Positions 1,253 to 44,711 of a stretch of DNA of 48,817 bases are shown here, in pieces (the stretch's first letter is position 1; the number at the start of each line of letters is the position of its first letter). Under the pieces are notes generated by a model that saw nothing but the letters and a program-made list of their open reading frames with translations, ran no database searches and was not told where the DNA came from. The position numbers were made by a program, and so were the translations under genes. This DNA comes from an uncultured Pseudomonadota bacterium. GTDB taxonomy: Bacteria > Pseudomonadota > Gammaproteobacteria > Ga0077536. The stretch covers positions 1-48,817 of the forward strand of contig CAIKBL010000008.1 of assembly GCA_903825645.1 (NCBI GenBank), in the 5' to 3' direction.

Positions 1253-2408
1253 TTGAAGAAACAAACACCAAAGCAACTATCGCTTTGGCAAGAACAGGCT
1301 TTGGCGGGGAGAGAAATCTATGTGTGGTTCACTGGCTCACTTCGGGTGTCGCATCTGAAGTTATGTGCGAGCCGGGCGTTTTGGCTGGTGGCCTATCCGA
1401 GTCAGGGTCACGAGATATTGTTTGATGCGCATACCCGGAGCTTTGCGGCACTGGGCGGGATCCCTCGTCGCGGCATCTACGACAATATGAAAACGGCAGT
1501 CGACAAGGTCCTGAAGGGCAAGGGTCGGACCGTCAACGAGCGCTTCGCGGCGATGTGCGCGCATTATCTGTTCGACCCCGACTTCTGCAATGTGGCGAGC
1601 GGCTGGGAAAAAGGGGTTGTTGAGAAGAACGTTCAGGACAGCCGGCGGCGCGTGTGGATGGACGCGGGCAACCAGCGGTTCGGCAGCTTCATCGAACTGA
1701 ACGCATGGCTCGGCCAACGGTGCCGTGCGTTGTGGGATGAAGTGCGTCATCCCGAGTATGAGCAGTTCAGCGTGGCCGAGGTGCTTGAGCACGAACAGGC
1801 GCACCTGATGCCGATGACGACTCCATTCGACGGCTACGTCGAGAAGCCGGCCCGGGTGTCCAGCACCTGTCTGGTGTCGGTGGCGCGGAATCGCTACTCG
1901 GTGCCGTGCGAGTGGTTCGGTCAGAGGGTCAGCGCGCGACTCTATCCGGGCAGCGTCGTGATTGTCGCGGACGATCACCTCATCGCGCACCACGAGCGTC
2001 TGCGCAACAACGGCGAGACGCGGTACGACTGGCAGCACTACATCCCGTTGCTGGAGCGTAAACCGGGCGCACTGCGGAACGGCGCGCCGTTCATCGATAT
2101 GCCGGAGCCTCTGCAGCGCCTGCGACGTGGATTGCTCCGTCATCCGGGTGATGGCGCAAGTGCTGGCGATTGTGTTGACGGCCGGGCTGGAAGCGGTGCT
2201 GGTCGCGGTGGCGTTGGCACTCGAGACTGGCCCTCCCGGCAAGGTGAGCGTCGAGCATGTCATCCATGTGTTGGCACGGCTGAACGCCGCGCCGGTCCCA
2301 CCTACGGCGGCCACCTCGTTACAGGTGTCGGTGCCCCCACTCGCCGACACGGCACGCTACGACAGTCTGCGGACCGACACGAGCGAGGAGATCCCGCATG
2401 AGGCGTGA
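1253..2408 (+). pseudogene. istA: IS21-family transposase IstA, truncated and frameshifted
   Basis: From about 1335 the translation matches the middle and end of IstA, the DDE transposase of IS21-type elements (for example RRGIYDNMKTAVDKV, DFCNVASGWEKG and NRYSVPCE). The first 140 or so residues, with the helix-turn-helix domain and the first catalytic aspartate, are missing, and the codons at 1253-1335 are unrelated. Near 2140-2150 the frame changes: LLRHPG is read in one frame and RVMAQVLAIV in another, so a small deletion has occurred. The end overlaps the istB start, as is normal for IS21. The gene cannot make a working transposase. Confidence 0.85.
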
Positions 2409-3207
2409 TGTGGGAGTCGAACTGAAACAGTTGCGCCTGCACGGGATGGCCGGCGCCTGGGCAGAACTGGTCGAGCAAGGCACGAATGCCGGACTCGACT
2501 CCTCGCGCTGGCTGCTCGAACATCTGCTGGCTGCCGAGGAGACCGACCGGGCGATGCGTTCGGTCAATCATCAGATGCATGCTGCCCGCTTCCCCGTGCA
2601 TCGCGACATCGCAGGCTTCGACTTTGAGGTCTCGCCAGTCGATCGCAAACTGGTGAGCCAACTTGCCACCACGAGCTTTACCGACGACGCCCACAACGTC
2701 GTGCTGGTGGGCGGACCCGGCACCGGCAAAACCCATCTGGCGACCGCCATCGGGGTGGCGGGCATCACCCGCCATGGCAAGCGCGTGCGCTTCTACTCGA
2801 CGGTCGATCTGGTCAATGCGTTGGAGCAGGAAAAGGCGCAGGGCAAGGCGGGGCGCATTGCGCAAAGTCTGCTGCGCATCGACTTGGTGATCCGCGATGA
2901 ACGCGGTTACCTGCCATTCAGTCAGGCCGGCGGCGCGCTGCTGTTCCATCTACTCAGCCGGCTTTACGAGCATACCAGCGTGATGGTCACGACGAACCTG
3001 GACTTCGGAGAGTGGTCGAGCGTGTTTGGAGACGCGAAGATGACCACCGCGCTATTGGACCGTCTGACGCACCACTGTCACATCGTCGAGACCGGCAACG
3101 AGTCATTCCGCTTCAGCCGCAGTACAGCCGAGGCGAAGAGACGCATCAAAGCGCGCGAGCAGGCGCGCAAAGGCCTCAAGTCTGAGGCGGATCAAGATGA
3201 GGTCTGA
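2398..3207 (+). CDS. istB: IS21-family helper ATPase IstB
   Basis: A 269-residue DnaC/DnaA-like AAA+ protein that in IS21 elements helps IstA choose a target. Walker A is GGPGTGKT at residues 105-112 and the Walker B acidic pair is D167-E168 in RDERGYLPF. The family usually has LDELGYLPF at this point, so two hydrophobic residues have become arginine, which may weaken the site. The C-terminal segment [20 protein letters not shown] is typical. It overlaps the end of istA by 11 bases. With istA broken it has no partner here. Confidence 0.9.
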
Positions 3208-3308
3208 GCCCACCATTGCCCGCCGCAGATGCGGCCAAGGAGGACACCACAGCAAACAAATCGCTACACTTATCCACAGCCACACCCTTCAGGGTTGGCT
3301 TCCACCCC

Positions 3309-3359
3309 TGGCTCATTTTTGAGTCGGCACAGTGGCTCAGTTTTAAGTCGGCGCTAACA
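3309..3359 (+). mobile_element. Right end of the IS21-family element with terminal repeats
   Basis: Two near-identical 20-bp copies (3309-3328 and 3333-3352, differing at two positions, 24 bp apart) lie downstream of istB, as the multiple terminal repeats of IS21 elements do. The element probably ends at the ACA near 3359. The left end is missing with the start of istA, so a target duplication cannot be tested. Together with the leader up to 3578 this accounts for the 371-bp stretch after istB; no other gene is seen in it. Confidence 0.65.
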
Positions 3360-3578
3360 GGCAGGACGGTTCCGAGACCCGTGATGGCACTGCGAACGCA
3401 GATGGATTCGACGATCAGGCCGCAGCCAAAGATGACCTCGAAGCTCCTCCGTAATAAAGGCTGGGACGTCAATCCCTCCCGGCAGGTGCTTGCCAGCCAG
3501 GGGTGCGTCGGTTACACCGCTAAAGAAGAACACGAATTGACTTCAAACAACAACGAACTGGCGCAGGGGACATTTCTT

Positions 3579-6500
3579 ATGGAGAGCCAGGATGAGAAGG
3601 CCGACACAGGCCACACGGAACGCCTTTCGGGTGTCGCAATTGAAATCGAGTCCGACGCGACTCTGGGCTACGCCTCAATTCAAAACGCGGTGCCCGTCAT
3701 TCGGTCTCTGCGCCTGACAAATCAGACGGAACAACCGCTGGAGCACCTGCAGGTACTCGTCACCTGCAATCCCTCCTTCGCTCTGGGTGTCAAGCTGAGA
3801 TTCGATCGTTTGGCCCCGAACGAGAGCCGGCGGATCTCGCCCGTGGACTTGCAGCCCGATCACGCTTACCTCGCTGATTTGCAGGAGTCGGTAAACGCTG
3901 CGGTCAACGTCACCGTCCTCGCTGGCTCCGAGGAAATCGCGCGTACTTCACGCTCTATCGAGGTGTTGGCCTACGACCAGTGGGCTGGCACCAGGGCTCT
4001 ACCCGAGTTGTTGGCGGCTTTCTGCATGCCCAACAACCCGGCCGTGGACACGCTCATCGGCAAAGCATCGAAGCTGCTGCGCACGCAGTTCCCCGAGCTG
4101 TCGATGAAGGGCTACCAGTCAAAAAGCCGTGAGGTTGTCTGGCGACAAATTTCTGCGCTGTACAGCACCATCTCAGCCGAGAGCCTGCAGTACGCCGAGC
4201 CGCCTGCATCGTTTGGGTCCGAAGGACAAAAGATTCGTACGCCAGACCGCATCCTCGATGGGCGCGTGGCCACCTGTCTTGACCTCGCGATGCTCTTTGC
4301 ATCTTGTCTGGAGCAAGCCGGCCTGCGCGCCGTGGTTCTGATCAAGGAAGGACACGCCTGGATAGGCGTGTGGCTTCACTCGGCGTGCTTTCCAGACCCG
4401 CTGACCGACGACGCGCAGTCCATTCGTAAACGTGTGGCGAGCGGCGAATTTCTGGTCTTTGAAACTACGGGGGTCGCGCAGCACCACAGCCACAGGCCGT
4501 CGCTGCGCATCGCATTGGAGCAAGGCGATGCGCACCTCCGCGAGGAGGGCACATTCCGTTACGCGGTAGACATTCACCGCGCCCGAGAACTGCAGATCAA
4601 GCCGCTGCCTTCCCGGTTTGCACCTTCGAAGCCGGCCGCGTCAAGTCTGGCCGAGGAACCCGCAGCGATTGAGCCCACGCCCCATATGCCGGCGCTCGAC
4701 CCTGAAGTACTCAAAACGGTAGACCTGCCTGCCGATGACACGCCTGAGGGCCGGCTTTCGAAATGGAAGTCAAAGCTTCTTGACCTGACGCTGCGCAACC
4801 GCCTTCTGAATTTCAAGCCGACCAAAACCACCCTGCAGTTCGTTGCTCCGGATCTCGGAAAACTGGAAGATGCCTTGGCTGACGGCATCGAATTCAAGAT
4901 CCGTGCGCTGCCGGCAATCATGGAGGGCAATGACCCTCGGATGGCTCAGGTGCACACCAATCGTGCCGGCCGAAAGCCTGTCGACGACATGGCACTCGAA
5001 GCACTCGCCAACAAGGAGTTGCTGGCCCAGGCGCAGCAAGAATCCCTTGATGGCAATTTGCTGGCCATACACAGTGCGGCGCGCACCGGGCTTGAAGAGG
5101 GGGGAGCAAACACCCTCTACCTGGCGATCGGTTTGCTTCGCTGGACAGAGGCAGACAAGGCAGAGTCGACTCACCTGGCGCCCATCCTGTTGGTGCCAAT
5201 CTCACTTCAGCGTCAGTCAGTTCGCAGCGGCTTTCGACTGACGCGTCACGACGACGAGTCGATCATCAACCCCACGCTGATGCAACTGCTCAAAAACAGT
5301 TTTGAACTGCGCATCACCGGCCTTGACGTCGTGCCTACCGATGACAAGGGTGTTGATGTCGAAAAGATTCTGCAGTCGTTCAGGCTGGCGGTGCGGGAAA
5401 TCCCAAAGTGGGAGGTGCTCGAAGAGGCGCACTTGGGAATCTTCTCGTTCACCAAGTACCTCATGTGGAAAGACCTCCAGGACCGTACCGAGCAGCTGAA
5501 AGCGAACCGGTTCGTCAAGCACCTCATCGACCATCCTGGCGAGGCCTTCGTTCTTGAAGACCGTGCAGACAACTTCGACAGGCTGGACGACTCGCATCGG
5601 CCTCAAGACATCCTGGCGCCGCTCCTGTCAGATTCCTCGCAACTCAAGGCCATCTGCGCTGTCGATGCCGGACGAGACCTTGTGCTTGAGGGCCCCCCGG
5701 GTACGGGCAAGAGTCAAACCATCACCAACCTGATTGCGCACAGCTTGGCAAAGGGCAAGACGGTGCTGTTCGTGTCCGAGAAGATGGCAGCATTGGAGGT
5801 CGTGCATCGCCGGCTGAGCGCTATTGGGCTAGGCCCCTTTTGCCTAGAACTTCACTCGTCGAAGGCGAAAAAGACGGATGTGCTGCAGCAACTGGGCAAG
5901 TCGCTCGACATCAGTGGGCAGAAGACTGCTGAGGACTGGTCGCGCGAGGCAGAGCGGTTGGCTCAATTCAGGCAGGACCTCAATGGCCTCGTCGATGCAC
6001 TTCACCGAGTTCACCCGAACGGATTGACCGTTTATGAAGCCACCGGAACGTGCATCGAGAACACCGGCACGGAGCCTTGCGCAATGCCTTGGGCCGACCC
6101 GCTCACCCACAGCCGCGAGGCCCTGGACAAACTGCGTGAGACGTCGCGCCGAATGGCTGCGCTGGCCGCAGTCCTGGGATCGGTACACGGGCACTTGCTG
6201 GCTGAAGTGGGCAAGCCGCAGTGGTCGCCGACGTGGCAGGACGAGTTGCTATCTGCCGCGCAATCGCTGGATCTGGCTGTGCAGCACTTGCGCGGCAAGT
6301 GCGACGGCGTTACCAAGGTCATCGGGCAGCCGGTTTCGGGGCTCAGCCTTGTGGCCTATCAGGCTCTCGATTCGCTCGCAGACGCGCTGCTGGCTGCGCC
6401 GAAAGTGCCGATCGGGCTTGCGAGACAGGCCCACGACGATGGCACACGAGCCAGACTCAAGGCGCTGAGCGCGCACGGCCTGGCCAGAAGCGCCCACTGG

Positions 6501-8846
6501 CAACGCGTCGGCGCCGGCTGGAAGATGCAACTGGCAAAACTGAGCGCCACCGACCTGCACAACGAGTGGTCGCTGGCCAGCAACAGTTGGTGGCCGAAGT
6601 CTTGGCTGGCGCAGCGGAAATTCAAGACGCGGCTTGCGGGCTTTCGCGAAGACGGCGGCAGTCCATCGGATGCGGCCCTCACGGCGATGCTCGCCGCGCT
6701 GGCCGATGTCAACGAGGAAGACCTGTTTCTTCGGGCCATGCACGCTGAGGCCGAGGTATTGCTGCAGGACGCTTACAACGGACTGCAGACCGACTGGGCC
6801 GGCTTGGACGCGCACGAGAAGTGGGCGAAGAAGTTCACCGATGCCGTGACGCTGGTTGCCACCGAGGTGGCAGACGATGCCGTGACCTTGCGCGCGGCGC
6901 TGCAGCCCTTGGTCGCAGAAAACCGCGCCGCCTTGGCACCCGCCGGAGTTGCTGGGCGAGCGTTGCTTGAGTATCGAGACGCATGGCGCGATGCCATGCA
7001 GAAACTGGGCACGCTTGAGGGGCTCGCAATGCCGCTTTCGCCCGTGCAGGGCCCGCCAGGTGCTGCGGGCGCTCTTGAGCGGATTCAGGGCGTCATCGCA
7101 GGCTGGCAGTCGGCCAAACGGCTGATCCAGCCTTGGTGTCTGTGGCGCAGCGTGCGCGACGGTGCGGTGGCCGCGGGACTTCAGGGATTGGTCTCAGGAA
7201 TCGAATCCGGGAGTGTTCGGCTCGACGAAGTCGAAGCTAGGTTTGAGTTCAGCTACCGGCACTGGTGGGTGAAAAAGACGATCGATAACGAGCCTGCGCT
7301 GAAGACTTTTTCCAGCGATGACCACGAGCGCAAGATCCGCGAGTTCAGACAGGCCGATGAGCGTTTCCAAAAACTGACAGAGCAGTACATCGCTGCGACG
7401 CTGGCGGGGCGGATTCCCTCGGCAGCCGCAGCGGCTGATGGTGCAGACAGCGAGCTCGGTCGGCTCAGACGCGAGATGCAAAAGCAGCGCCGGCATATGC
7501 CGGTTCGCCAACTCGTTCAAGGCTTACCGACCCTGTTGCCCAAGCTCAAGCCCTGCTTGCTGATGTCGCCACTCTCGGTGGCCCAGTACCTCGACGCGGG
7601 CTATGCGCAATTCGATCTGGTTGTGTTCGATGAGGCGTCCCAGATTCCGGTGTGGGATGCGGTGGGTGCGATTGCGCGCGGCAAGCAGCTGGTTGTCGTG
7701 GGCGATCCGAAGCAGCTACCGCCGACCAACTTCTTCAACAAATCGACAAACAGCGACGACGGCGCCGCCAGTGATGATCAGGTGGAAGACCTCGAGAGCA
7801 TCCTGGATGAGTGTCTGGGCGCTGGCATGAACCGGCTGGGGCTGCAGTGGCACTACCGCAGCCGACATGAGAGTCTCATCACTTTCAGCAACGTCAATTA
7901 CTACGATTCCAGCCTGATCACATTCCCCTCGCCCGTGACGGACGACATCGCTGTCAAGTTCGAGCGCGTTCTTGGCGTCTATGACCGCGGCGGCACTCGT
8001 ACCAATCGTGCTGAGGCCGAGGCGATCATCAAAGGGATCGAAACTCATTTCTTGTCGCCAGCAAGAAGGCACCTGACGCTGGGGGTTGTCACCTTCAATC
8101 AAACCCAGCAAGGCCTCATAGAGACGCTGCTCGAGGAAAGGCGTCGGAAGAACCAGGAACTGGACCGTGCGATCGCGGCGAGCTCCCATGAGCCGCTATT
8201 CATCAAGAACCTGGAAAACGTCCAAGGCGATGAACGCGACGTCATCTTCTTTTCGATCACATACGGACCGGATGCCGCTGGAAAAACGACGATGAACTTT
8301 GGCCCGCTAAATGGCGAGGGCGGCCACCGCCGGCTCAACGTGGCGATTTCTCGAGCCCGGGAGGGCGTGGTGATCTACAGCACGCTCCTGCCCGAGCAAA
8401 TTGACTTGGCACGTGTTCGAACGGCCGGGGTTCGCGACCTTAAGCACTACCTTGAGTTTGCGTTGAAGGGCCCCAGAGCGCTTGTTGAGCAGTCCATGCC
8501 CACAGGTATGGAGCCCGACAGCCCGTTCGAGACCGCCGTCATCAAAATGCTGCGCTATCGCAACTGGGTACTTCATCCCCAAGTGGGTTGCTCGGGCTAT
8601 CGGATCGACATCGGCGTTGTCGATCCTCGTGCACCCGGGCGTTACCTCGTCGGCATCGAATGCGATGGGCGCTCTTATCACTCTGGCGCAACGGCGCGCG
8701 ATCGTGACCGGCTAAGGCAGCACGTACTCGAAGGATTGGGCTGGCGCATCTATCGCATCTGGTCGACTGACTGGTGGCTGAATCCGGATCGAGAGATCGA
8801 AAAAGTAGTTGCACAACTGCAGGCTCTGCTGGCTGAAGAGGCGTAA
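3579..8846 (+). CDS. DUF4011-helicase-Vsr nuclease protein, Hhe-like antiphage protein (C-terminus cut by stop)
   Basis: A 1755-residue protein. Residues near 230-260 look like a transglutaminase-type fold (Cys233, GHAW His259). DUF4011 begins near 392 (RLSKWKSKLLDLTLRNRLLNF). A superfamily 1 helicase follows: Walker A GPPGTGKS at 705-712, DEASQ at 1351, GDPKQLPP soon after, a VQGDERDV motif and the arginine-finger motif NVAISRAREG. The last 120 residues form a Vsr-like PD-(D/E)XK nuclease (RIDIGVV, then ECDG at 1694). This order matches the single-gene DUF4011-helicase-Vsr (Hhe) antiphage candidates. I take ATG 3579, which has AGGGGA upstream; the frame stays open to 3216, inside the IS end. 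The TAA at 8844-8846 is followed in the same frame by the usual DUF3320 end, so this is probably a nonsense-truncated gene. Confidence 0.85.
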   Translation: MESQDEKADTGHTERLSGVAIEIESDATLGYASIQNAVPVIRSLRLTNQTEQPLEHLQVLVTCNPSFALGVKLRFDRLAPNESRRISPVDLQPDHAYLADLQESVNAAVNVTVLAGSEEIARTSRSIEVLAYDQWAGTRALPELLAAFCMPNNPAVDTLIGKASKLLRTQFPELSMKGYQSKSREVVWRQISALYSTISAESLQYAEPPASFGSEGQKIRTPDRILDGRVATCLDLAMLFASCLEQAGLRAVVLIKEGHAWIGVWLHSACFPDPLTDDAQSIRKRVASGEFLVFETTGVAQHHSHRPSLRIALEQGDAHLREEGTFRYAVDIHRARELQIKPLPSRFAPSKPAASSLAEEPAAIEPTPHMPALDPEVLKTVDLPADDTPEGRLSKWKSKLLDLTLRNRLLNFKPTKTTLQFVAPDLGKLEDALADGIEFKIRALPAIMEGNDPRMAQVHTNRAGRKPVDDMALEALANKELLAQAQQESLDGNLLAIHSAARTGLEEGGANTLYLAIGLLRWTEADKAESTHLAPILLVPISLQRQSVRSGFRLTRHDDESIINPTLMQLLKNSFELRITGLDVVPTDDKGVDVEKILQSFRLAVREIPKWEVLEEAHLGIFSFTKYLMWKDLQDRTEQLKANRFVKHLIDHPGEAFVLEDRADNFDRLDDSHRPQDILAPLLSDSSQLKAICAVDAGRDLVLEGPPGTGKSQTITNLIAHSLAKGKTVLFVSEKMAALEVVHRRLSAIGLGPFCLELHSSKAKKTDVLQQLGKSLDISGQKTAEDWSREAERLAQFRQDLNGLVDALHRVHPNGLTVYEATGTCIENTGTEPCAMPWADPLTHSREALDKLRETSRRMAALAAVLGSVHGHLLAEVGKPQWSPTWQDELLSAAQSLDLAVQHLRGKCDGVTKVIGQPVSGLSLVAYQALDSLADALLAAPKVPIGLARQAHDDGTRARLKALSAHGLARSAHWQRVGAGWKMQLAKLSATDLHNEWSLASNSWWPKSWLAQRKFKTRLAGFREDGGSPSDAALTAMLAALADVNEEDLFLRAMHAEAEVLLQDAYNGLQTDWAGLDAHEKWAKKFTDAVTLVATEVADDAVTLRAALQPLVAENRAALAPAGVAGRALLEYRDAWRDAMQKLGTLEGLAMPLSPVQGPPGAAGALERIQGVIAGWQSAKRLIQPWCLWRSVRDGAVAAGLQGLVSGIESGSVRLDEVEARFEFSYRHWWVKKTIDNEPALKTFSSDDHERKIREFRQADERFQKLTEQYIAATLAGRIPSAAAAADGADSELGRLRREMQKQRRHMPVRQLVQGLPTLLPKLKPCLLMSPLSVAQYLDAGYAQFDLVVFDEASQIPVWDAVGAIARGKQLVVVGDPKQLPPTNFFNKSTNSDDGAASDDQVEDLESILDECLGAGMNRLGLQWHYRSRHESLITFSNVNYYDSSLITFPSPVTDDIAVKFERVLGVYDRGGTRTNRAEAEAIIKGIETHFLSPARRHLTLGVVTFNQTQQGLIETLLEERRRKNQELDRAIAASSHEPLFIKNLENVQGDERDVIFFSITYGPDAAGKTTMNFGPLNGEGGHRRLNVAISRAREGVVIYSTLLPEQIDLARVRTAGVRDLKHYLEFALKGPRALVEQSMPTGMEPDSPFETAVIKMLRYRNWVLHPQVGCSGYRIDIGVVDPRAPGRYLVGIECDGRSYHSGATARDRDRLRQHVLEGLGWRIYRIWSTDWWLNPDREIEKVVAQLQALLAEEA

Positions 8847-9503
8847 GACGCCGAAAAGGCTCCGAGCGTTCCGGGTGAATCCGCAGAAGGCAATGCCCCG
8901 GCCGAAACCGGCGAAGCTTCCCCGCCAGACCTGGGTGACGCTGTCACAGCGGTAGCAGGTGGGGCCTTAGGGCCGCCATCCCCGGTTGTATATGCGTGCA
9001 CCGTGCTGCCAGCAGGAAATCCGGCGATGTTTTACGAGACCGGTTCAGCCGGGGCGCTGGTTGCGCAGTTGCATCAAGTCATCGAGGAAGAAGGGCCAAT
9101 ATTGGAGGCAGTTCTGTTCAGACGGGTGGCGCGAGCGTGGGGGTTGGAGCGAACCGGTAGCCGTATCACTGAGCGGCTGAGGAATATGGTCCCCGCGACC
9201 TGCGTCAAAACCAGCGAGGCAAGTGCGACGTTTTACTGGCCCGCAGGTGCGGACCCTGAGACGTGGGGGAAATTCAGGGTTGCCGGTCAAGAGGAGTCGT
9301 CGCGCAGAAATGTGGCCGAGGTGAGCCTTCAAGAAATCCGGGCGGTCGTAATGCACGTCCTCGATCAAGGTGGTGGGGCTACGAGCAGCGACATCGCGCG
9401 CTCAGTCTGTCGCCTTCTTGGAATGGCGAGAACACCTGTTGATGCAGAAGCACGAGTTGTGCAGGCAATGGAAGTGCCAGATCAGATGCGGCTCATCCAT
9501 TAG
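8847..9503 (+). pseudogene. DUF3320 C-terminal portion of the Hhe-like protein, separated by one in-frame stop
   Basis: The frame of the preceding gene continues with no further stop to 9503. After a 50-residue Ala/Pro/Glu-rich linker comes a DUF3320 domain (for example EEEGPILEAVLFRRVARAWGL and FYWPAG), which in relatives is the extreme C-terminus of the same polypeptide. Restored, the protein would be about 1974 residues. An internal start at 9003 or 9027 could make DUF3320 alone, but no convincing ribosome site is seen. Either a point mutation made the TAA, or there is readthrough, or the domains now act in trans. Confidence 0.75.
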
Positions 9504-12936: not shown

Positions 12937-13479
12937 ATGAAATTCCCGGTGCTAGAATTTTTCCCTAAGCTGCTTCTTTGTGCGCAGCAGAAATCTTTCA
13001 AGCGACAAAACTTCCAGTTCATGCAGGCTCTTGACAACACCCTTCCAGCCGAACCGATTCAGGAGCGGTGGGGCGAAGCCTTGAATGCTGGGTTTCTGGT
13101 TGCGCCGGTGGCACTGCTGCGTCATCAGCAGGAACTGGGGCTCGATGCCGGCGACTTGGTGGTCGCGCTCAACATCCTGGGCGCCTGGTGGTATCGCGAC
13201 AGGCTGCCCTTTCCGAGCACCAACACGATTGCGTCGCGCATGGGCGTGACGATGCGGACGGTGCAGCGGCACCTGGCCAAGCTCGAAGGGCTCGGCCTCA
13301 TCCGTCGGCTACGCAATCAGCCAGGCAGCGGGAACGGCGTGCTGGTGACGAAGTACGACCCTGACGGGCTGGTCAAGCGCCTGCAGGCGCTTGGCAAGGA
13401 AGCTCACCCGCGGCGCAAGCTGAGGGAAGCGCCGACGGACGGCGCACAGCAGGAGAAGTCAAACGAGTTTGCGACGTAG
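12937..13479 (+). CDS. Helix-turn-helix protein, mobile-element type
   Basis: A protein of about 180 residues with a winged helix-turn-helix in the middle: STNTIASRMGVTMRTVQRHLAKLEGLGLIRR, here quoted only by its span near residues 90-120. The preceding segment (LVAPVALLRHQQELGL, LNILGAWWY, LPFPS) is common to HTH proteins found on plasmids and islands, some of them replication-linked. No catalytic motif is seen. The start is uncertain: TTG 12928, ATG 12937 or ATG 13021, with MQALDNTLP at 13021 matching where relatives seem to begin, and none has a good ribosome site. Its stop codon lies inside the acceptor-to-D-arm region of the tRNA-like gene that follows. A small inverted repeat (CGACG/CGTCG, 12909-12922) lies just upstream. 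Confidence 0.65.
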   Translation: MKFPVLEFFPKLLLCAQQKSFKRQNFQFMQALDNTLPAEPIQERWGEALNAGFLVAPVALLRHQQELGLDAGDLVVALNILGAWWYRDRLPFPSTNTIASRMGVTMRTVQRHLAKLEGLGLIRRLRNQPGSGNGVLVTKYDPDGLVKRLQALGKEAHPRRKLREAPTDGAQQEKSNEFAT

Positions 13480-13575
13480 CTCAGTCGGATAGAGCATCCC
13501 GTTGACGACGTACTACAGGGCGGCACCTCGATAGTACGGGCGGGAAGGGCGCGGGTTCAAGTCCCGCCGTCGCAC
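13470..13575 (+). tRNA. tRNA-like gene with a 32-nt hairpin insertion in the anticodon loop
   Basis: Every arm of a tRNA is present. The acceptor has 7 perfect pairs (13470-13476 with 13568-13574), then TA at positions 8-9, a D-arm GCTC/GAGC (13479-13482, 13492-13495), an anticodon stem TCCCG/CGGGA (13497-13501, 13541-13545), a five-base variable loop and a T-arm GCGGG-TTCAAGT-CCCGC. The anticodon loop is 39 bases instead of 7. Inside it a second perfect 7-bp stem forms, CGTACTA (13509-13515) with TAGTACG (13532-13538). No CCA is encoded. Removing bases 13509-13540 would leave TTGACGA as the loop, but the true splice or original state is unknown. It overlaps the end of the HTH gene. It may be a dead tRNA, an integrase site or a specialised RNA. 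Confidence 0.6.
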
Positions 13576-13669: not shown

Positions 13670-13930
13670 ATGCAGAGCATGAACATTTCGCTGCCTGACC
13701 CGCTCAAGCAGTACGTGGATGGCCAGATTTCGACGGGGCGCTACAGCAGTGCCAGCGAGTACGTGCGCGAGCTCATCCGCGCCGACGAGAAGCGCAAGGC
13801 CGAAGAGCAGCTCGAAGCCAAGCTGCTGGAAGGCCTGAGCAGCCCCGAAACCGCACTGAGCCCATCGGACTGGAAGGCCATCCGCAAGGAAGCAATGGCC
13901 AAGGTGGAAGCGCGAAAGCAAACGCGTTGA
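13670..13930 (+). CDS. parD: ParD-type antitoxin
   Basis: An 86-residue protein with an N-terminal ribbon-helix-helix domain (MNISLPDPLKQYVDGQISTG, then YSSASEYVRELIR) and a charged, flexible C-terminal half that would bind the toxin. Length and layout are typical of ParD. The ATG at 13670 follows a purine-rich ribosome site (AAGGTGA). A second ATG four codons in is possible. The stop overlaps the parE start by one base, and an operator-like repeat lies upstream. The pair is intact. Confidence 0.88.
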   Translation: MQSMNISLPDPLKQYVDGQISTGRYSSASEYVRELIRADEKRKAEEQLEAKLLEGLSSPETALSPSDWKAIRKEAMAKVEARKQTR

Positions 13931-14253
13931 TGCCGGTTGTCAGCAAGCGCGAGGCCGCACGGCGCGACCTGGTCGAGCACTTCGTCTATCTGGCCGAGAA
14001 CGCCGGCATGGACGTGGCCGACCGCTTCCTGGCTTGCGCCGAATCCAGCTTCATGGATCTGGCGCGGCAGCCCAAGATGGGCGCACCGCTGAAGCTCAAG
14101 CATCCTGACCTGGCCAACATTCGGAAGTGGCGGGTGAAGGACTTCGACAATCACCTGGTCTTCTACGAGCCGCGCCTTGACGGCGTGTCCATCGTGCGCG
14201 TGCTCCACGCGGCCAGCGACTGGTGGGAGCTGTTGGGACTCACGGACGCCTGA
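13930..14253 (+). CDS. parE: ParE/RelE-superfamily toxin
   Basis: A 107-residue protein with the ParE pattern: an N-terminal helical pair (SKREAARRDLVEHFVYLAENAG), then PKMGAPLKLKHPDLANIRKWRV and the strand-rich end YEPRLDGVSIVRVLHAASDW. ParE toxins of this fold poison DNA gyrase, though RelE-like members cut mRNA, and the sequence alone does not decide. ATG 13930 is preferred to TTG 13927 because it forms the usual TGATG overlap with parD. Intact and coupled to its antitoxin, it could stabilise the island by addiction. Confidence 0.85.
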   Translation: MPVVSKREAARRDLVEHFVYLAENAGMDVADRFLACAESSFMDLARQPKMGAPLKLKHPDLANIRKWRVKDFDNHLVFYEPRLDGVSIVRVLHAASDWWELLGLTDA

Positions 14254-14407: not shown

Positions 14408-15865
14408 ATGTTTGAGCAGACCTTTAAGAACATCGACGACATCCTGCACAAGGACGCAGGCTGCACCAGCGAGATGGACTACACCGAGCAATCGTCCTGG
14501 CTGCTGTTCCTGAAATACCTCGACGCGCTTGAAGGAGACAAGGCCTCGGAAGCCGCGCTCGAAGGCAAGCGCTACAGCTTCATCCTTGACGAGGCCTACC
14601 GCTGGGAAGCCTGGGCCGCCCCGAAAACCGCCGACGGCAAGCTCAACCACAACGCCGCACTAACCGGCGATGACCTTCGCGACTTCGTCAACCTCAAGCT
14701 ATTCCCGTACCTGGCCGGCTTCAAGCAGCGTGCCAGCGGCCCCAACACCATCGAATACAAGATCGGCGAGGTCTTCGGCGAGATCAAGAACAAGGTCCAG
14801 AGCGGCTACAACCTGCGCGACGTGATCGAGCTGGTCGACGAGCTGCGCTTCGGCTCACAGACCGAGAAGCACGAGCTCTCGCACCTCTACGAAGCCAAGA
14901 TCAAGAACATGGGCAACGCCGGGCGCAACGGCGGTGAGTACTACACGCCGCGCCCGCTCATTCGCGCCATGGTCAAAGTGCTCGACCCCAAGATCGGCGA
15001 GCGCATCTACGACGGTGCCTGTGGGTCGGCCGGCTTCCTGTGCGAGGCCTTCGACTACCTGAGCAGCCGTCCCGGCCTTACGACAGCCGACCTGAAGACG
15101 CTGCAGACGCGCACGTTCTATGGCAAGGAGAAGAAGAGCCTAGCCTACGTCATCGCGATCATGAACATGATCCTGCATGGAATCGAGGCACCGAACGTCA
15201 TCCACGCCAACACGCTGGCCGACAACATCAGCGACATCCAGGACAGAGACCGCTACGACGTAATCCTGGCCAACCCACCCTTCGGCGGCAAAGAACGCAA
15301 GGAGGTTCAGCAGAACTTCCCGATCAAGACCGGTGAGACGGCCTTCCTGTTCCTTCAGCATTTCATCAAGACGCTACGTGCTGGCGGGCGCGCGGCCATC
15401 GTCATCAAGAACACGTTCCTGAGCAACACCGACAACGCCAGCACCAGCATCCGCAAGCTGCTGCTGGAAAGCTGCAACCTGCACACTGTGCTCGACTGCC
15501 CCGGTGGCACGTTTCAGGGGGCGGGCGTCAAGACCGTGGTGCTGTTCTTCGAGAAGGGTACGACCACGCGCAAGGTCTGGTTCTACCAACTGAACCCGGG
15601 CCGCAACATGGGCAAGACCAACGCCCTCAACGACAACGACCTGGCTGAGTTCATCACCCTGCAGAAGACGTTTGCCGACTCACCGCAAAGCTGGTCAGTT
15701 GACGTGGCCAGCCTCAACACGGCCACCTACGACCTGTCCGTCAAGAACCCGAACGGCGTCAACGAGGTCGCGTATCGAACCCCGAAAGACATCCTCGATG
15801 AGATAGCAGCGCTCGATGCCGAGAGCGCTGAAGTGCTAGCCACGATCCGGGAGCTCGTGTCGTGA
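14408..15865 (+). CDS. hsdM: Type I restriction-modification methyltransferase subunit HsdM
   Basis: A 485-residue N6-adenine methyltransferase subunit, full length for its subfamily. The N-terminal HsdM helical domain is at 1-130. The S-adenosylmethionine motif is DGACGSAGFL at 202-211 and the catalytic motif NPPFGG begins at 289. HsdM works as a dimer with one HsdS, which reads the DNA target, and with HsdR, which cuts. Here hsdS follows at once with an ATGA overlap but is truncated, and no hsdR is in the window. HsdM without HsdS has no specificity, so this gene is probably idle unless an HsdS is supplied from elsewhere. Confidence 0.92.
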   Translation: MFEQTFKNIDDILHKDAGCTSEMDYTEQSSWLLFLKYLDALEGDKASEAALEGKRYSFILDEAYRWEAWAAPKTADGKLNHNAALTGDDLRDFVNLKLFPYLAGFKQRASGPNTIEYKIGEVFGEIKNKVQSGYNLRDVIELVDELRFGSQTEKHELSHLYEAKIKNMGNAGRNGGEYYTPRPLIRAMVKVLDPKIGERIYDGACGSAGFLCEAFDYLSSRPGLTTADLKTLQTRTFYGKEKKSLAYVIAIMNMILHGIEAPNVIHANTLADNISDIQDRDRYDVILANPPFGGKERKEVQQNFPIKTGETAFLFLQHFIKTLRAGGRAAIVIKNTFLSNTDNASTSIRKLLLESCNLHTVLDCPGGTFQGAGVKTVVLFFEKGTTTRKVWFYQLNPGRNMGKTNALNDNDLAEFITLQKTFADSPQSWSVDVASLNTATYDLSVKNPNGVNEVAYRTPKDILDEIAALDAESAEVLATIRELVS

Positions 15866-41616: not shown

Positions 41617-42756
41617 TCAGGGCTGAGCCTCACCCAGCAGCTGGGTCAATATCCCTTCGTACAGCGCTGAAAGCGCTTCCAAATCGTCGATTCGCACGCA
41701 TTCGTTGATTTTATGGATCGTCGCATTGACGGGTCCGAGTTCGATGATTTCGCATCCGAGGCGGGCAATAAAGCGGCCATCTGAGGTCCCACCGCCGGTC
41801 GATAATTCAGAATGTACGCCAAGTTGGGACGCGATGTTCCCGACCACCGCAGAAACCAAGGGACCTCGCGGCGTCAGAAACGGACTTCCCGAGAGGTGCC
41901 AGTCAATGCGGAAATCGAGTCCCGCCGCGTCGAGGAGGGCGGTGACGCGTTGCTTGAGGTCTTCCGGGGTACTGGCGGTGCTGAAGCGGAAGTTGAACCA
42001 GGCCTGGAGCACGCCGGGCACGACATTCTCGGCCCCTGTGCCGGCCTGAAGATTCGAAATCTGGAAGGACGTCGGTGGGAAGTATTCATTGCCCTGATCC
42101 CATTCCATTGCCGCGAGACTTGCCAGCGCCGGGGCCGCGAGATGAATGGGATTACGCACCCTGTCCGGATAAGCGACATGGCCCTGCACGCCTTGCACGA
42201 ACAGACGGCCGTTGAGCGAGCCGCGGCGCCCATTGCGCAGCAAATCACCGAGCTGGGTCTGGCTGCTGGGCTCTCCCACGAGACACCAGGTCAGGCGTTG
42301 CTGACGGGCGGCCAGCACGTCGACCACGCGCTGTGTGCCATCGATGGCAATACCTTCCTCATCCGAGGTCAGCAGAAACGCGAGCGTGCCTCGATGATGG
42401 GGGTGCGCTCCCACAAAGGCTTCAGCCGCGGTGACCATGGCGGCCAGGCTACCCTTCATGTCTGCCGCACCGCGCCCGTACAGATAGTCGCCTCGGATGG
42501 TGGGCACAAACGGATCAGAATCCCATGCCGCCAAATCGCCCGGCGGGACGACGTCGGTGTGTCCCGCAAAGCAGAACACCGGCTCGCCTGTGCCATGCGT
42601 GGCCCACAAATTCGATACCGATCCGAAGGGCATGGGCTCGAGGGTGAAACCAGCGCGTTCGAGCCGCCCGCCCAGCTGGTCCAGACAACCGGCGTCGTCG
42701 GGTGTGACGGAGGGGCGAGCGATCAGCTGCCGCGTCAGTTCGAGGGTTGCTGTCAT
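41617..42756 (-). CDS. dapE: Succinyl-diaminopimelate desuccinylase
   Basis: A 379-residue zinc hydrolase (M20 family) of lysine and peptidoglycan synthesis. Metal ligands and catalytic residues are visible: His66 and Asp68 in [12 protein letters not shown], Asp99 in GRGAADMKG, and Glu133-Glu134 in [22 protein letters not shown] and [12 protein letters not shown] near the C-terminus are specific to DapE. The ATG overlaps the stop of the methyltransferase gene by two bases, so the two are translated together. It is the last gene of the yciB-yciI-bolA-methyltransferase-dapE operon. Confidence 0.95.
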
Positions 42757-43577
42757 GGTTCCGCCGACTCTGCCGGTAAGGCGGTCTCGAGCCGGCGGCG
42801 CGCCAGATCGGCAAATTCGGGATCCGCTTCACAACCCTGGAAGCGGCGCTGCAGGCGCAGGCTGGCGATCCCGGTCGACGCGGATCCGCTAAACGGGTCG
42901 AGTACTAAATCGCCTGCGTTTGTGCTGGCTTCGAGACAGCGTTCGATGAGGGCCAGGGGCTTTTGCGTGGGATGCTTGCCGGCTTTTTTTTCAGCCTTTC
43001 CAGGGGCTCCCAAGCGCCAGACGTTCTTCATCTGCCGATCTCCATTTGCCTTCTTCATGGCGTCGTAATTGAACACATGCCGATGGCGGCTGCCTTTCGG
43101 AGCCTTCGTCGCCCACAGCAATATTTCAGTGGAATGGGTGAAGCAGCGGCAGCCAAGATTGGGTGGGGGATTCGGCTTTTCCCAGATAATGTCATTTAGA
43201 AGACGAAATCCCAATTCCTGGAGCGCTGTGCCGACGCTCAGATAAACGTGCAACGTCCCACTGATCCAGATGGTCCCTGCCGGCTTCAAGACACGCTGGC
43301 ACTCGCGTAACCATTGCAGGTTATAGGCGTGGTTGGCCGCCAAGCCCTGGCTGTGGTCCCAGTTGCCCTTATTAACGCTTGCGCGTCGCCCACCGACGCA
43401 GGTCGTGCCATCGTTGGACAGAAAATAGGGTGGGTCGGTCCAAACACAATCCACGCTCTCTGTCGCCAGTGTCGGCAGGAAGCTTTCCTGCGCCGCGTAA
43501 AATAACGTGGATTGGCCATTTTCCGAGCGCCAAAGCGGCTCAACAATCGATGTCGTTGGCTCAGTGGCCCGCTTCAT
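42753..43577 (-). CDS. Site-specific DNA methyltransferase, DpnA-like (beta class)
   Basis: A 274-residue amino-methyltransferase. The catalytic motif comes first, [11 protein letters not shown] with DPPY at 48-51, and the S-adenosylmethionine motif last, [10 protein letters not shown] at 227-236, so it belongs to the beta class. The segments [21 protein letters not shown] and [19 protein letters not shown] closely resemble DpnA, the second methylase of the DpnII system, which methylates adenine in GATC. The specificity is therefore a guess. No restriction enzyme is nearby, so it is an orphan. ATG 43577 follows GGAG and overlaps bolA; its stop overlaps dapE, so it is built into a housekeeping operon. 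Confidence 0.9.
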
Positions 43578-43842
43578 CGGGACTCCAGGCGTTGATACTG
43601 AGGGCGTGAATATCGGTCTCGAACAGCGCCGAGAGGGCGCCATAGACCAGCCGATGACGCGCGAGCGCGGTTTTGCCGGTAAACGCGGCGGCGGTGATGT
43701 GCAAGGAAAAATGCCCCTTGCCGGTGCTGGCGCCCGCGTGCCCGCGATGCAGGTGACTGTCGTCTTCCAAGGTAAGACTGACTGGGCTAAAACACGCTGT
43801 CAGTGTCTCGGTGATGCGTTGCACACGGTCGTCGGCAGCCAT
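43561..43842 (-). CDS. BolA family protein
   Basis: A 93-residue protein starting MAADDRVQRITETL. The BolA pattern is clear: VSLTLEDDSHLHRGHAG with the conserved histidine, HFSLHITAAAFTGKTALARHRLVYGAL, and the C-terminal IHALSINAW. BolA proteins pair with monothiol glutaredoxins in iron-sulphur handling and affect cell shape. ATG 43842 is chosen by the family start; the frame is open further. The end overlaps the methyltransferase start by 17 bases and the start lies one base after the yciI stop. Confidence 0.92.
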   Translation of the reverse strand: MAADDRVQRITETLTACFSPVSLTLEDDSHLHRGHAGASTGKGHFSLHITAAAFTGKTALARHRLVYGALSALFETDIHALSINAWSPDEAGH

Positions 43843-43843
43843 C

Positions 43844-44143
43844 TTAGGGGAAAACCTGTTTGAAGGGCCGCACGTCAAAGTGCCGGAACACGCCCGCGGT
43901 GACATAGGGATCTGCCTTGATCCAAGCTTCGGCGTCGGCCAGGGAATCAAATTCAGCCACAATCAGGCTGCCCGCAAATCCGGCAGGTCCGGGATCCGGG
44001 CTATCGATAGCAGGGAACGGGCCCGCCAGAATCATGCGTCCCGCCGCTTTGAGTACCTCCACCCGTTCCAGGTGGGCCGGGCGCATGGCAAGGCGTCGTG
44101 GCAGGCTGTCAGGGACATCGTAACCGATGATGGCGTAGAGCAT
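43844..44143 (-). CDS. YciI family protein
   Basis: A 99-residue protein of the ferredoxin-like YciI/YCII fold: MLYAIIGYDVPDSLPRRLAMRPAHLERVE, given by its span 1-29, with the conserved RPAHLERV histidine, then AGRMILAGPFPA and DADPYVTAGVF-like ADPYVTAGVF with Asp. The function of the family is not settled; a dehydratase- or chlorohydrolase-like activity has been proposed for some. ATG 44143 is preceded by GGAG. It follows yciB by seven bases and is part of the same operon. Confidence 0.88.
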   Translation of the reverse strand: MLYAIIGYDVPDSLPRRLAMRPAHLERVEVLKAAGRMILAGPFPAIDSPDPGPAGFAGSLIVAEFDSLADAEAWIKADPYVTAGVFRHFDVRPFKQVFP

Positions 44144-44150
44144 GAGGGGG

Positions 44151-44711
44151 TCAATCTCCTGTGGTCTGGGAAGGACGCGAGGCATACCGGGCAAGATAGA
44201 CGGCCTGCAACGCGGCAAATGTCAGCGATAAGCCGAACGTGCCAAAAACCTTAAAGTTTACCCAGGCCTCCGTACTCCGGTAGAAAGCGAAATACAGATT
44301 CAGCAGGCCCATCGCGACGAAGAACAAGCTCCAGGCCTTATTCAGAACGGACCAGACGGTCGGTGGGGCCTCGAGACTGCTGCCGAACATCCGCTCCACG
44401 AGCGTTTTGGGTCCAAAATACCCGGAAAGGAGGCAGGAGCCGGCCATCATCCAACTCACGATTGTCGGTTTCCATTTGATGTAGCGCAAATCGTGCAGGG
44501 CGAGGGTTAGCCCCCCGAGGACGACGAGGATCCCCAAGGTGATCAGCTGCTGACGACCCACGGTGCGGTACCGAGCCCACTGATAGAGGACCATCAAAGC
44601 CGCCACCCCGATGGCGGTGGCCGTGGCGGGATAAATGGCCTCAGTGCCACCAATCGTCTTGAAGACGATGAAAAATGCGATGATTGGCAGCATGTCGCCG
44701 AGGAGTTTCAT
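44151..44711 (-). CDS. yciB: Inner-membrane septation protein YciB (IspA/IspZ family)
   Basis: A 186-residue membrane protein with five hydrophobic segments. MKLLGDMLPIIAFFIVFK is the usual start, and KWKPTIVSWMMAGSCLLSGYF and AWSLFFVAMGLLNLYFAF are family signatures. It is linked to cell-envelope integrity and septation. ATG 44711 is chosen over the upstream open frame on family grounds. It is the first gene of the operon and diverges from yciO with 60 bases between. Confidence 0.93.
   Translation of the reverse strand: MKLLGDMLPIIAFFIVFKTIGGTEAIYPATATAIGVAALMVLYQWARYRTVGRQQLITLGILVVLGGLTLALHDLRYIKWKPTIVSWMMAGSCLLSGYFGPKTLVERMFGSSLEAPPTVWSVLNKAWSLFFVAMGLLNLYFAFYRSTEAWVNFKVFGTFGLSLTFAALQAVYLARYASRPSQTTGD

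Follow-up and report, generated by a model that had tools for sequence, protein, structure and literature searches.

A DpnA-type orphan methylase encoded between bolA and dapE as the probable replacement for Dam as the GATC-marking partner of MutH

Background

The accessible part of PMC4786541 treats Dam and MutH as partners that co-evolved, the "dam clade". MutL of E. coli lacks endonuclease activity and MutL of MutH-less bacteria (e.g. P. aeruginosa) has it, according to the accessible part of PMC8744996. According to PMC3573125 (accessible part), DpnA methylates single-stranded DNA and keeps GATC sites protected, and the pneumococcal enzyme protects incoming single-stranded DNA. A DNA adenine methylase, a DpnA homologue and a type II nuclease are encoded in a row on Lactococcus plasmid pSRQ700, and comparable gene rows were found on Staphylococcus and Lactiplantibacillus plasmids. 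We take the pSRQ700 genes to encode a GATC system. In the open-access literature no report of a DpnA-type enzyme partnering MutH was found; the one paper found to name both MutH and DpnA, PMC4687349, does not link them as partners in its accessible part.

Here we describe a DpnA-type methylase gene of an uncultured gammaproteobacterium. The window was the whole stretch of DNA analysed, 48,817 nt of contig CAIKBL010000008.1.

Results

A DpnA-type methylase gene overlapping bolA and dapE

As shown in Table 1, the methylase gene lay in a co-directional run of genes. The end of bolA (43561) fell within the start of the methylase gene (43577), and the methylase TGA and the dapE ATG shared the sequence ATGA at 42753–42756. 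In 32 operon loci (i.e. loci with the methylase gene beside bolA or dapE), the gaps to bolA and dapE, taken from aligned starts and stops, were mostly within tens of bases, with 107 nt between methylase and bolA in one of them (L039).

Table 1. Coordinates of the methylase gene, its motifs and neighbouring genes in the window
Feature	Position	Strand	Remarks
yciB/ispZ septation protein A gene	44151..44711	minus	co-directional run; start codon chosen by the analyst
yciI-like gene	43844..44143	minus	co-directional run of genes with the methylase; start codon chosen by the analyst
bolA (PF01722, E 2.1e-24)	43561..43842	minus	upstream of methylase, 17-nt overlap; start codon chosen by the analyst
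DpnA-type beta-class N6-adenine DNA methyltransferase gene	42753..43577	minus	274 aa, ATG to TGA
Catalytic DPPY motif, residues 48–51	43425..43436	minus	invariant in 16/16 aligned operon-clade rows
Presumed target-recognition stretch, residues 136–201	42975..43172	minus	
SAM-binding motif DPFSGS, residues 227–232	42882..42899	minus	C-terminal to DPPY
dapE	41617..42756	minus	downstream of methylase, 4-nt overlap

In a Pfam profile search the methylase protein matched a single family, N6_N4_Mtase (E 2.3e-52), and had no match to PF02086 (MethyltransfD12, the alpha class of Dam; here D12). DPPY before the SAM motif is the beta-class order; the boundaries of the recognition stretch were placed by this order. 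Together with the lack of a long C-terminal domain and a grouping with DpnA homologues in the trees (below), this order places the protein in the DpnA lineage.

CcrM was the best PDB match by sequence (E 9.8e-52). No pneumococcal-kind DpnA was among the PDB matches, and the PDB entries titled DpnA were M1.HpyAVI by their structure titles, presumably from H. pylori. The best NCBIfam match was also CcrM (NF050803), with a score of 213 vs a cut-off of 830 and over positions 15–255 of 350 only. The predicted structure (mean pLDDT 82.1) was nearest to CcrM 6pbd in a fold search (Z 27.7, rmsd 3.6, 248 residues aligned), followed closely by MboIIA (Z 26.1). Since other beta-class methylases matched the fold nearly as well as CcrM, the fold does not separate the families, and since the recognition stretch was partly of low confidence, the structure model does not decide the target.

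Over the whole alignment, identity was 43–47% to three plasmid DpnA homologues vs 35–36% to two CcrM-type proteins; over the recognition stretch it was 52–58% vs 38–41%. The name DpnA-like, given to the protein in a preliminary description of this DNA, is thus upheld. A CcrM-like cell-cycle role was rejected as the leading reading on the family cut-off, the tree and the recognition stretch.

None of the four nuclease types that accompany relatives (below) was matched in the window, and neither was DpnM or DpnB. The locus therefore showed neither the dpnM-dpnA-dpnB gene set of a DpnII-type system nor, among the four types sought, the cognate nuclease beside the methylase that marks a type II restriction-modification system.

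Some other genes of the window may be recorded here. An HsdM-like type I methylase (14408–15865; PADLOC MTase_I, 535 bits) was the only other modification gene identified, and is distant. A 1876-aa DUF4011/AAA/MTES_1575 helicase-nuclease (3216–8846) matched the candidate defence family PDC-S37 strongly (1265 bits), its DUF3320 tail forming a separate downstream ORF (9003–9503). At 1253–3207 a transposase with a C-terminal domain of the Mu type and a weak match to rve was followed by an ORF resembling, by eye, its ATPase, as in an IS21 pair. Two small ORFs at 13671–14253 resembled, by eye, a ParD/ParE toxin-antitoxin pair, and an Rfam tRNA match at 13470–13575 (56.4 bits), ~35 nt longer than the model, was uncalled by ARAGORN.

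Conservation of the gene and of its place

Among 58 relatives searched at the protein level, the gene was present in all five congeneric species examined and in the majority of the family. The order comprises one family (f1, 36 genomes), of which 31 genomes matched at E 1e-40 or better: 25 with the gene in the operon and six of genus g3 with a gene at 50–52% identity. The bolA-methylase-dapE order was present in 25 of the 36. Both genes flanked the methylase in 26 of 30 loci (25 from f1 and one from f12), the other four being g3 loci; this conservation rules out a chance arrangement.

In a class-wide search of 369 evenly drawn Gammaproteobacteria, a sample of the species and not all of them, 23 genomes matched, 11 with the operon arrangement. 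These 11 came from six families (f1, f12, f29, f71, f120 and f133). Flanking by both bolA and dapE was also seen in f71, f120, f133 and f12; in the f29 genome (G063) bolA was present and dapE was not matched. The integration in a housekeeping operon, read in the preliminary description from the overlap with both neighbours, is supported: the gene order is conserved in f1 and four more families, with bolA only in a fifth.

Among close pairs dN/dS of the methylase was 0.046–0.092 (computable for nine of ten pairs, several with high dS). It was below that of bolA in 9/9 pairs and below that of dapE in seven of the eight pairs computable for both, indicating that the predicted coding sequence is under purifying selection. 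Phages gave no match at E 1e-30; 33 plasmid records matched, all below 60% identity. A strain-specific or mobile gene was rejected by its presence across genus, family and class.

Nuclease-linked relatives and origin

A scan of named genomes was also made, in which 80 of 122 loci were kept. Of these, 29 adjoined bolA or dapE (28 both, L090 bolA only), mostly in unclassified gammaproteobacterial MAGs, and 51 lay outside the operon. The nuclease search covered four types that occur beside relatives, within the sequence stretch around each locus. None was found in the 29 operon loci or in a second, overlapping set of 32 operon loci, nor was DpnM or DpnB. Among the 51 loci outside the operon, 33 adjoined nuclease candidates (24 MutH/Sau3AI-like, four PDDEXK_11, four DUF6997 and one DpnB-like), and 18 showed none of these types. 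The earlier remark that no nuclease is near therefore holds, for the types tested, in the window and the operon clade; neither of the two findings named beforehand as refuting, a gene confined to one strain or a nuclease beside it in relatives, was made for this clade. The wider family is, on these neighbours, a restriction-modification family. Three MutH-like neighbours tested matched Pfam MutH at 44.6–51.2 bits; one was compared with the PDB, with a Sau3AI entry as its best match (E 1.7e-6). Weaker Pfam matches to MvaI/BcnI, of other specificity, were also seen for the MutH-like neighbour gene.

A careful tree was built from 60 of the 105 rows of a quick tree, from which L055 had been left out as too short. 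The operon rows formed one clade (bootstrap/SH-aLRT 97/86) nested in a clade with mostly nuclease-linked relatives (100/100), and the g3 rows branched elsewhere. In the quick tree the operon label needed one change (support 90). The DpnA homologues fell on the methylase side in both trees, apart from the CcrM-type outgroup rows; this grouping depends on the root, which was placed on four and two CcrM-type rows. From its neighbours and tree position, the operon methylase is probably a domesticated restriction methylase, recruited from a restriction-modification system.

The g3 methylases, a separate branch, were kept out of the operon-clade counts. None of the tested nucleases adjoined them. 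In five g3 loci (L027–L030 and L033) the DpnA-like methylase was followed by a similar small ORF, with MORN repeats by Pfam in L030 and L033 and nothing in L028 and L029.

Probable target of the methylase

The commonest neighbour of the relatives outside the operon, the MutH/Sau3AI-like nuclease (24/51), points to GATC, with the caveat that 18/51 have none of the four nuclease types. Together with the recognition stretch this suggests that the operon methylase would be specific for GATC. Of the 33 nuclease-linked loci a single one, L136, had DpnM. In the other 32 the stretch examined showed no second methylase of the DpnM type, so that protection of the chromosome there seems to rest with one methylase. 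This favours double-strand action, and the operon enzyme would likewise act on double-stranded DNA; pneumococcal DpnA, as a single-strand methylase, is not obviously suited to marking chromosomes.

GATC sites were frequent in those operon genomes that were sampled (4.5–8 per kb). The observed/expected ratio was 1.00 in 1.0 Mb of G374 (an operon genome of another family), 0.74 in 92 kb of G011 and 0.92 in the window, and 0.81 in 100 kb of G009, where a D12 enzyme is present and both MutH and the methylase gene are absent. The sequences sampled thus gave no clear signal of over- or under-representation, and the lack of GATC enrichment counts against the proposed role in repair.

MutH without a Dam-class enzyme

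The genome to which the window belongs had no PF02086 match and one strong PF02976 (MutH) match (96.2 bits), encoded downstream of glnD (Pfam GlnD_UR_UTase). This protein matched H. influenzae MutH 2aoq (E 9.2e-57) and 1azo (E 9.2e-52), nearly over full length, and its acidic and lysine residues were conserved within the aligned DF..LG.ELKT stretch, i.e. it is the canonical MutH by which MutH-type repair is recognized. We take 1azo to be E. coli MutH and these residues to be catalytic. A repair-related role had been among the earlier guesses for the methylase; the presence of MutH and the absence of a D12 enzyme from this genome lend it support.

Within f1, MutH was found in 30 of 36 genomes: 24 with the operon gene, five with the g3 gene and one (G006, 62% complete) with a D12 enzyme of 183.7 bits. 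None of the f1 operon genomes had a full D12 match, G004 having a 23.6-bit fragment only. In g3, D12 was found in 0/6 genomes and MutH in 5/6. The operon gene and MutH were absent from G009, which has a D12 enzyme; G017 (72% complete) and G023 (71%) lacked all three, and in G027 (87%) the operon gene was present and MutH undetected. Such single absences carry little weight because many of the genomes are draft assemblies.

Across the class, 80 of the 369 genomes matched PF02976, or 76 after four were set aside as restriction nucleases (G077, G103 and G151, at 46–51 bits and adjoining DpnA-like genes, and G388, where one 472-aa frame held two MutH matches). All 11 operon genomes had MutH, seen in G012 as two fragments only. 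At a D12 cut-off of E 1e-10, 63 of the MutH-positive genomes had a D12 enzyme and 13 had none, with the caveat that PF02086 also catches D12 enzymes other than Dam. The operon gene was present in 10 of these 13 vs one of the 63 (Fisher p 3e-9, relatedness uncorrected). The one exception, G198, had a D12 enzyme of 141 bits beside the operon gene; very weak D12 matches (E 1e-4) were seen in G004 and G374. Three MutH-positive genomes had neither enzyme, G149 (100% complete), G094 (82%) and G105 (78%), and none of them matched PF01555 either; cut-offs of 1e-3 and 1e-30 gave two and four such genomes instead of three. G149 is a candidate for an unknown GATC methylase, or for MutH without one.

The most telling single comparison was genus g142, in which the two enzymes alternated: G167 had MutH and a D12 enzyme (230.6 bits) without the operon gene, and G279 had MutH and the operon gene without a D12 match. 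Such alternation within a genus is not expected from shared ancestry.

MutL, SeqA and dnaA

MutL of the window's own genome was not found in the ~0.94 Mb sampled of 4.13 Mb. MutL of G374, the one examined, had no match to the endonuclease motif, reading IDAQRARAALWLDAL where the MutL structure 3ncv reads IDMHAAAERVNYEKM (a weak alignment, E 0.005); the nick in G374 should therefore come from MutH. We take 3ncv to be N. gonorrhoeae MutL.

SeqA was found in 0/16 operon genomes and 2/2 comparison genomes. No dense GATC cluster was seen at 12 dnaA loci (at most 3–8 sites per 250 bp), although oriC itself may be located away from dnaA. A role in replication like that in E. coli is therefore unlikely.

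Discussion

We consider it likely, from these genome comparisons, that the DpnA-type orphan methylase has replaced Dam as the GATC-marking partner of MutH for methyl-directed mismatch repair. A restriction-system methylase would have been recruited, parted from its nuclease and become fixed in the bolA-dapE operon of gammaproteobacteria. After replication it would be slow to mark GATC on the new strand; in the meantime MutS and MutL, bound to a mismatch, would activate MutH, which would cut the strand still unmethylated. What follows methylation is established in E. coli (PMC8744996, accessible part). The methylase probably supplies the GATC mark that MutH uses in mismatch repair. On balance we also lean towards a displacement of alpha-class Dam by a beta-class restriction-type GATC methylase on at least two occasions, in the bolA-dapE clade and independently in g3.

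Other roles for the methylase have to be weighed. It might be a CcrM-like orphan regulator that recognizes GANTC or an altered motif, its co-occurrence with MutH being due to shared ancestry. CcrM was indeed the best PDB match, the best fold and the best NCBIfam match, but the family score was far below its cut-off, the PDB matches included no pneumococcal-type DpnA, the tree placed the protein with DpnA homologues and its recognition stretch was closer to theirs; shared ancestry, in turn, fits poorly with the alternation in g142. We regard this as unlikely. The GATC marks might instead serve replication timing or gene regulation above all, a use that Dam has in E. coli through SeqA (PMC4786541, accessible part); this seems quite improbable given the absence of SeqA from all 16 operon genomes and of a dense GATC cluster from the 12 dnaA loci.

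A leftover or protective methylase, acting against GATC-cutting invaders or, as DpnA does in pneumococcus (PMC3573125, accessible part), on single-stranded DNA in transformation, would suit the nuclease candidates beside 33 of the 51 non-operon relatives. It would not explain why one operon is kept across families, why the purifying selection is comparable to that on dapE, why none of the tested nuclease types occurs in the 29 operon loci, or why the gene should track MutH, and we hold it to be very improbable.

If the replacement of Dam by the operon methylase is real, a restriction methylase can be drawn into the core of genome maintenance, and neither Dam nor SeqA is needed for GATC-directed repair; this would be a natural system in which repair marking is free of SeqA-linked replication control. 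MutH-type repair would be modular and "Dam negative" gammaproteobacteria would not be a uniform class. The calling of methyl-directed repair from genomes would change as well, since searches for Dam or SeqA only would miss such cases.

Comparison with known systems

The methylase resembled DpnA (M2.DpnII), the second methylase of DpnII-type systems, in its beta-class order, its length and the DPPYFLSN...KG.WD motif, and shared the recognition stretch NL(G/S)CR.FTHSTE with DpnA homologues such as that of Lactococcus pSRQ700. Unlike DpnII-type systems, the operon methylase is chromosomal, has neither dpnM nor dpnB, keeps a fixed place between bolA and dapE and travels with MutH. Single-methylase systems with a MutH/Sau3AI-like nuclease (cyanobacteria, Chloroflexota and others) were the closest relatives, at 55–66% identity and in a common superclade (100/100), but they carry the nuclease downstream, and none was seen in the operon clade. 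CcrM (GANTC, cell cycle, Alphaproteobacteria) is likewise an orphan of the beta class with the same fold core; the operon methylase lacks its C-terminal part, has another recognition stretch and scores far below the family cut-off. With Dam it would share the proposed job, the marking of GATC for MutH, whereas the methylase class and the motif order differ and PF02086 is not matched.
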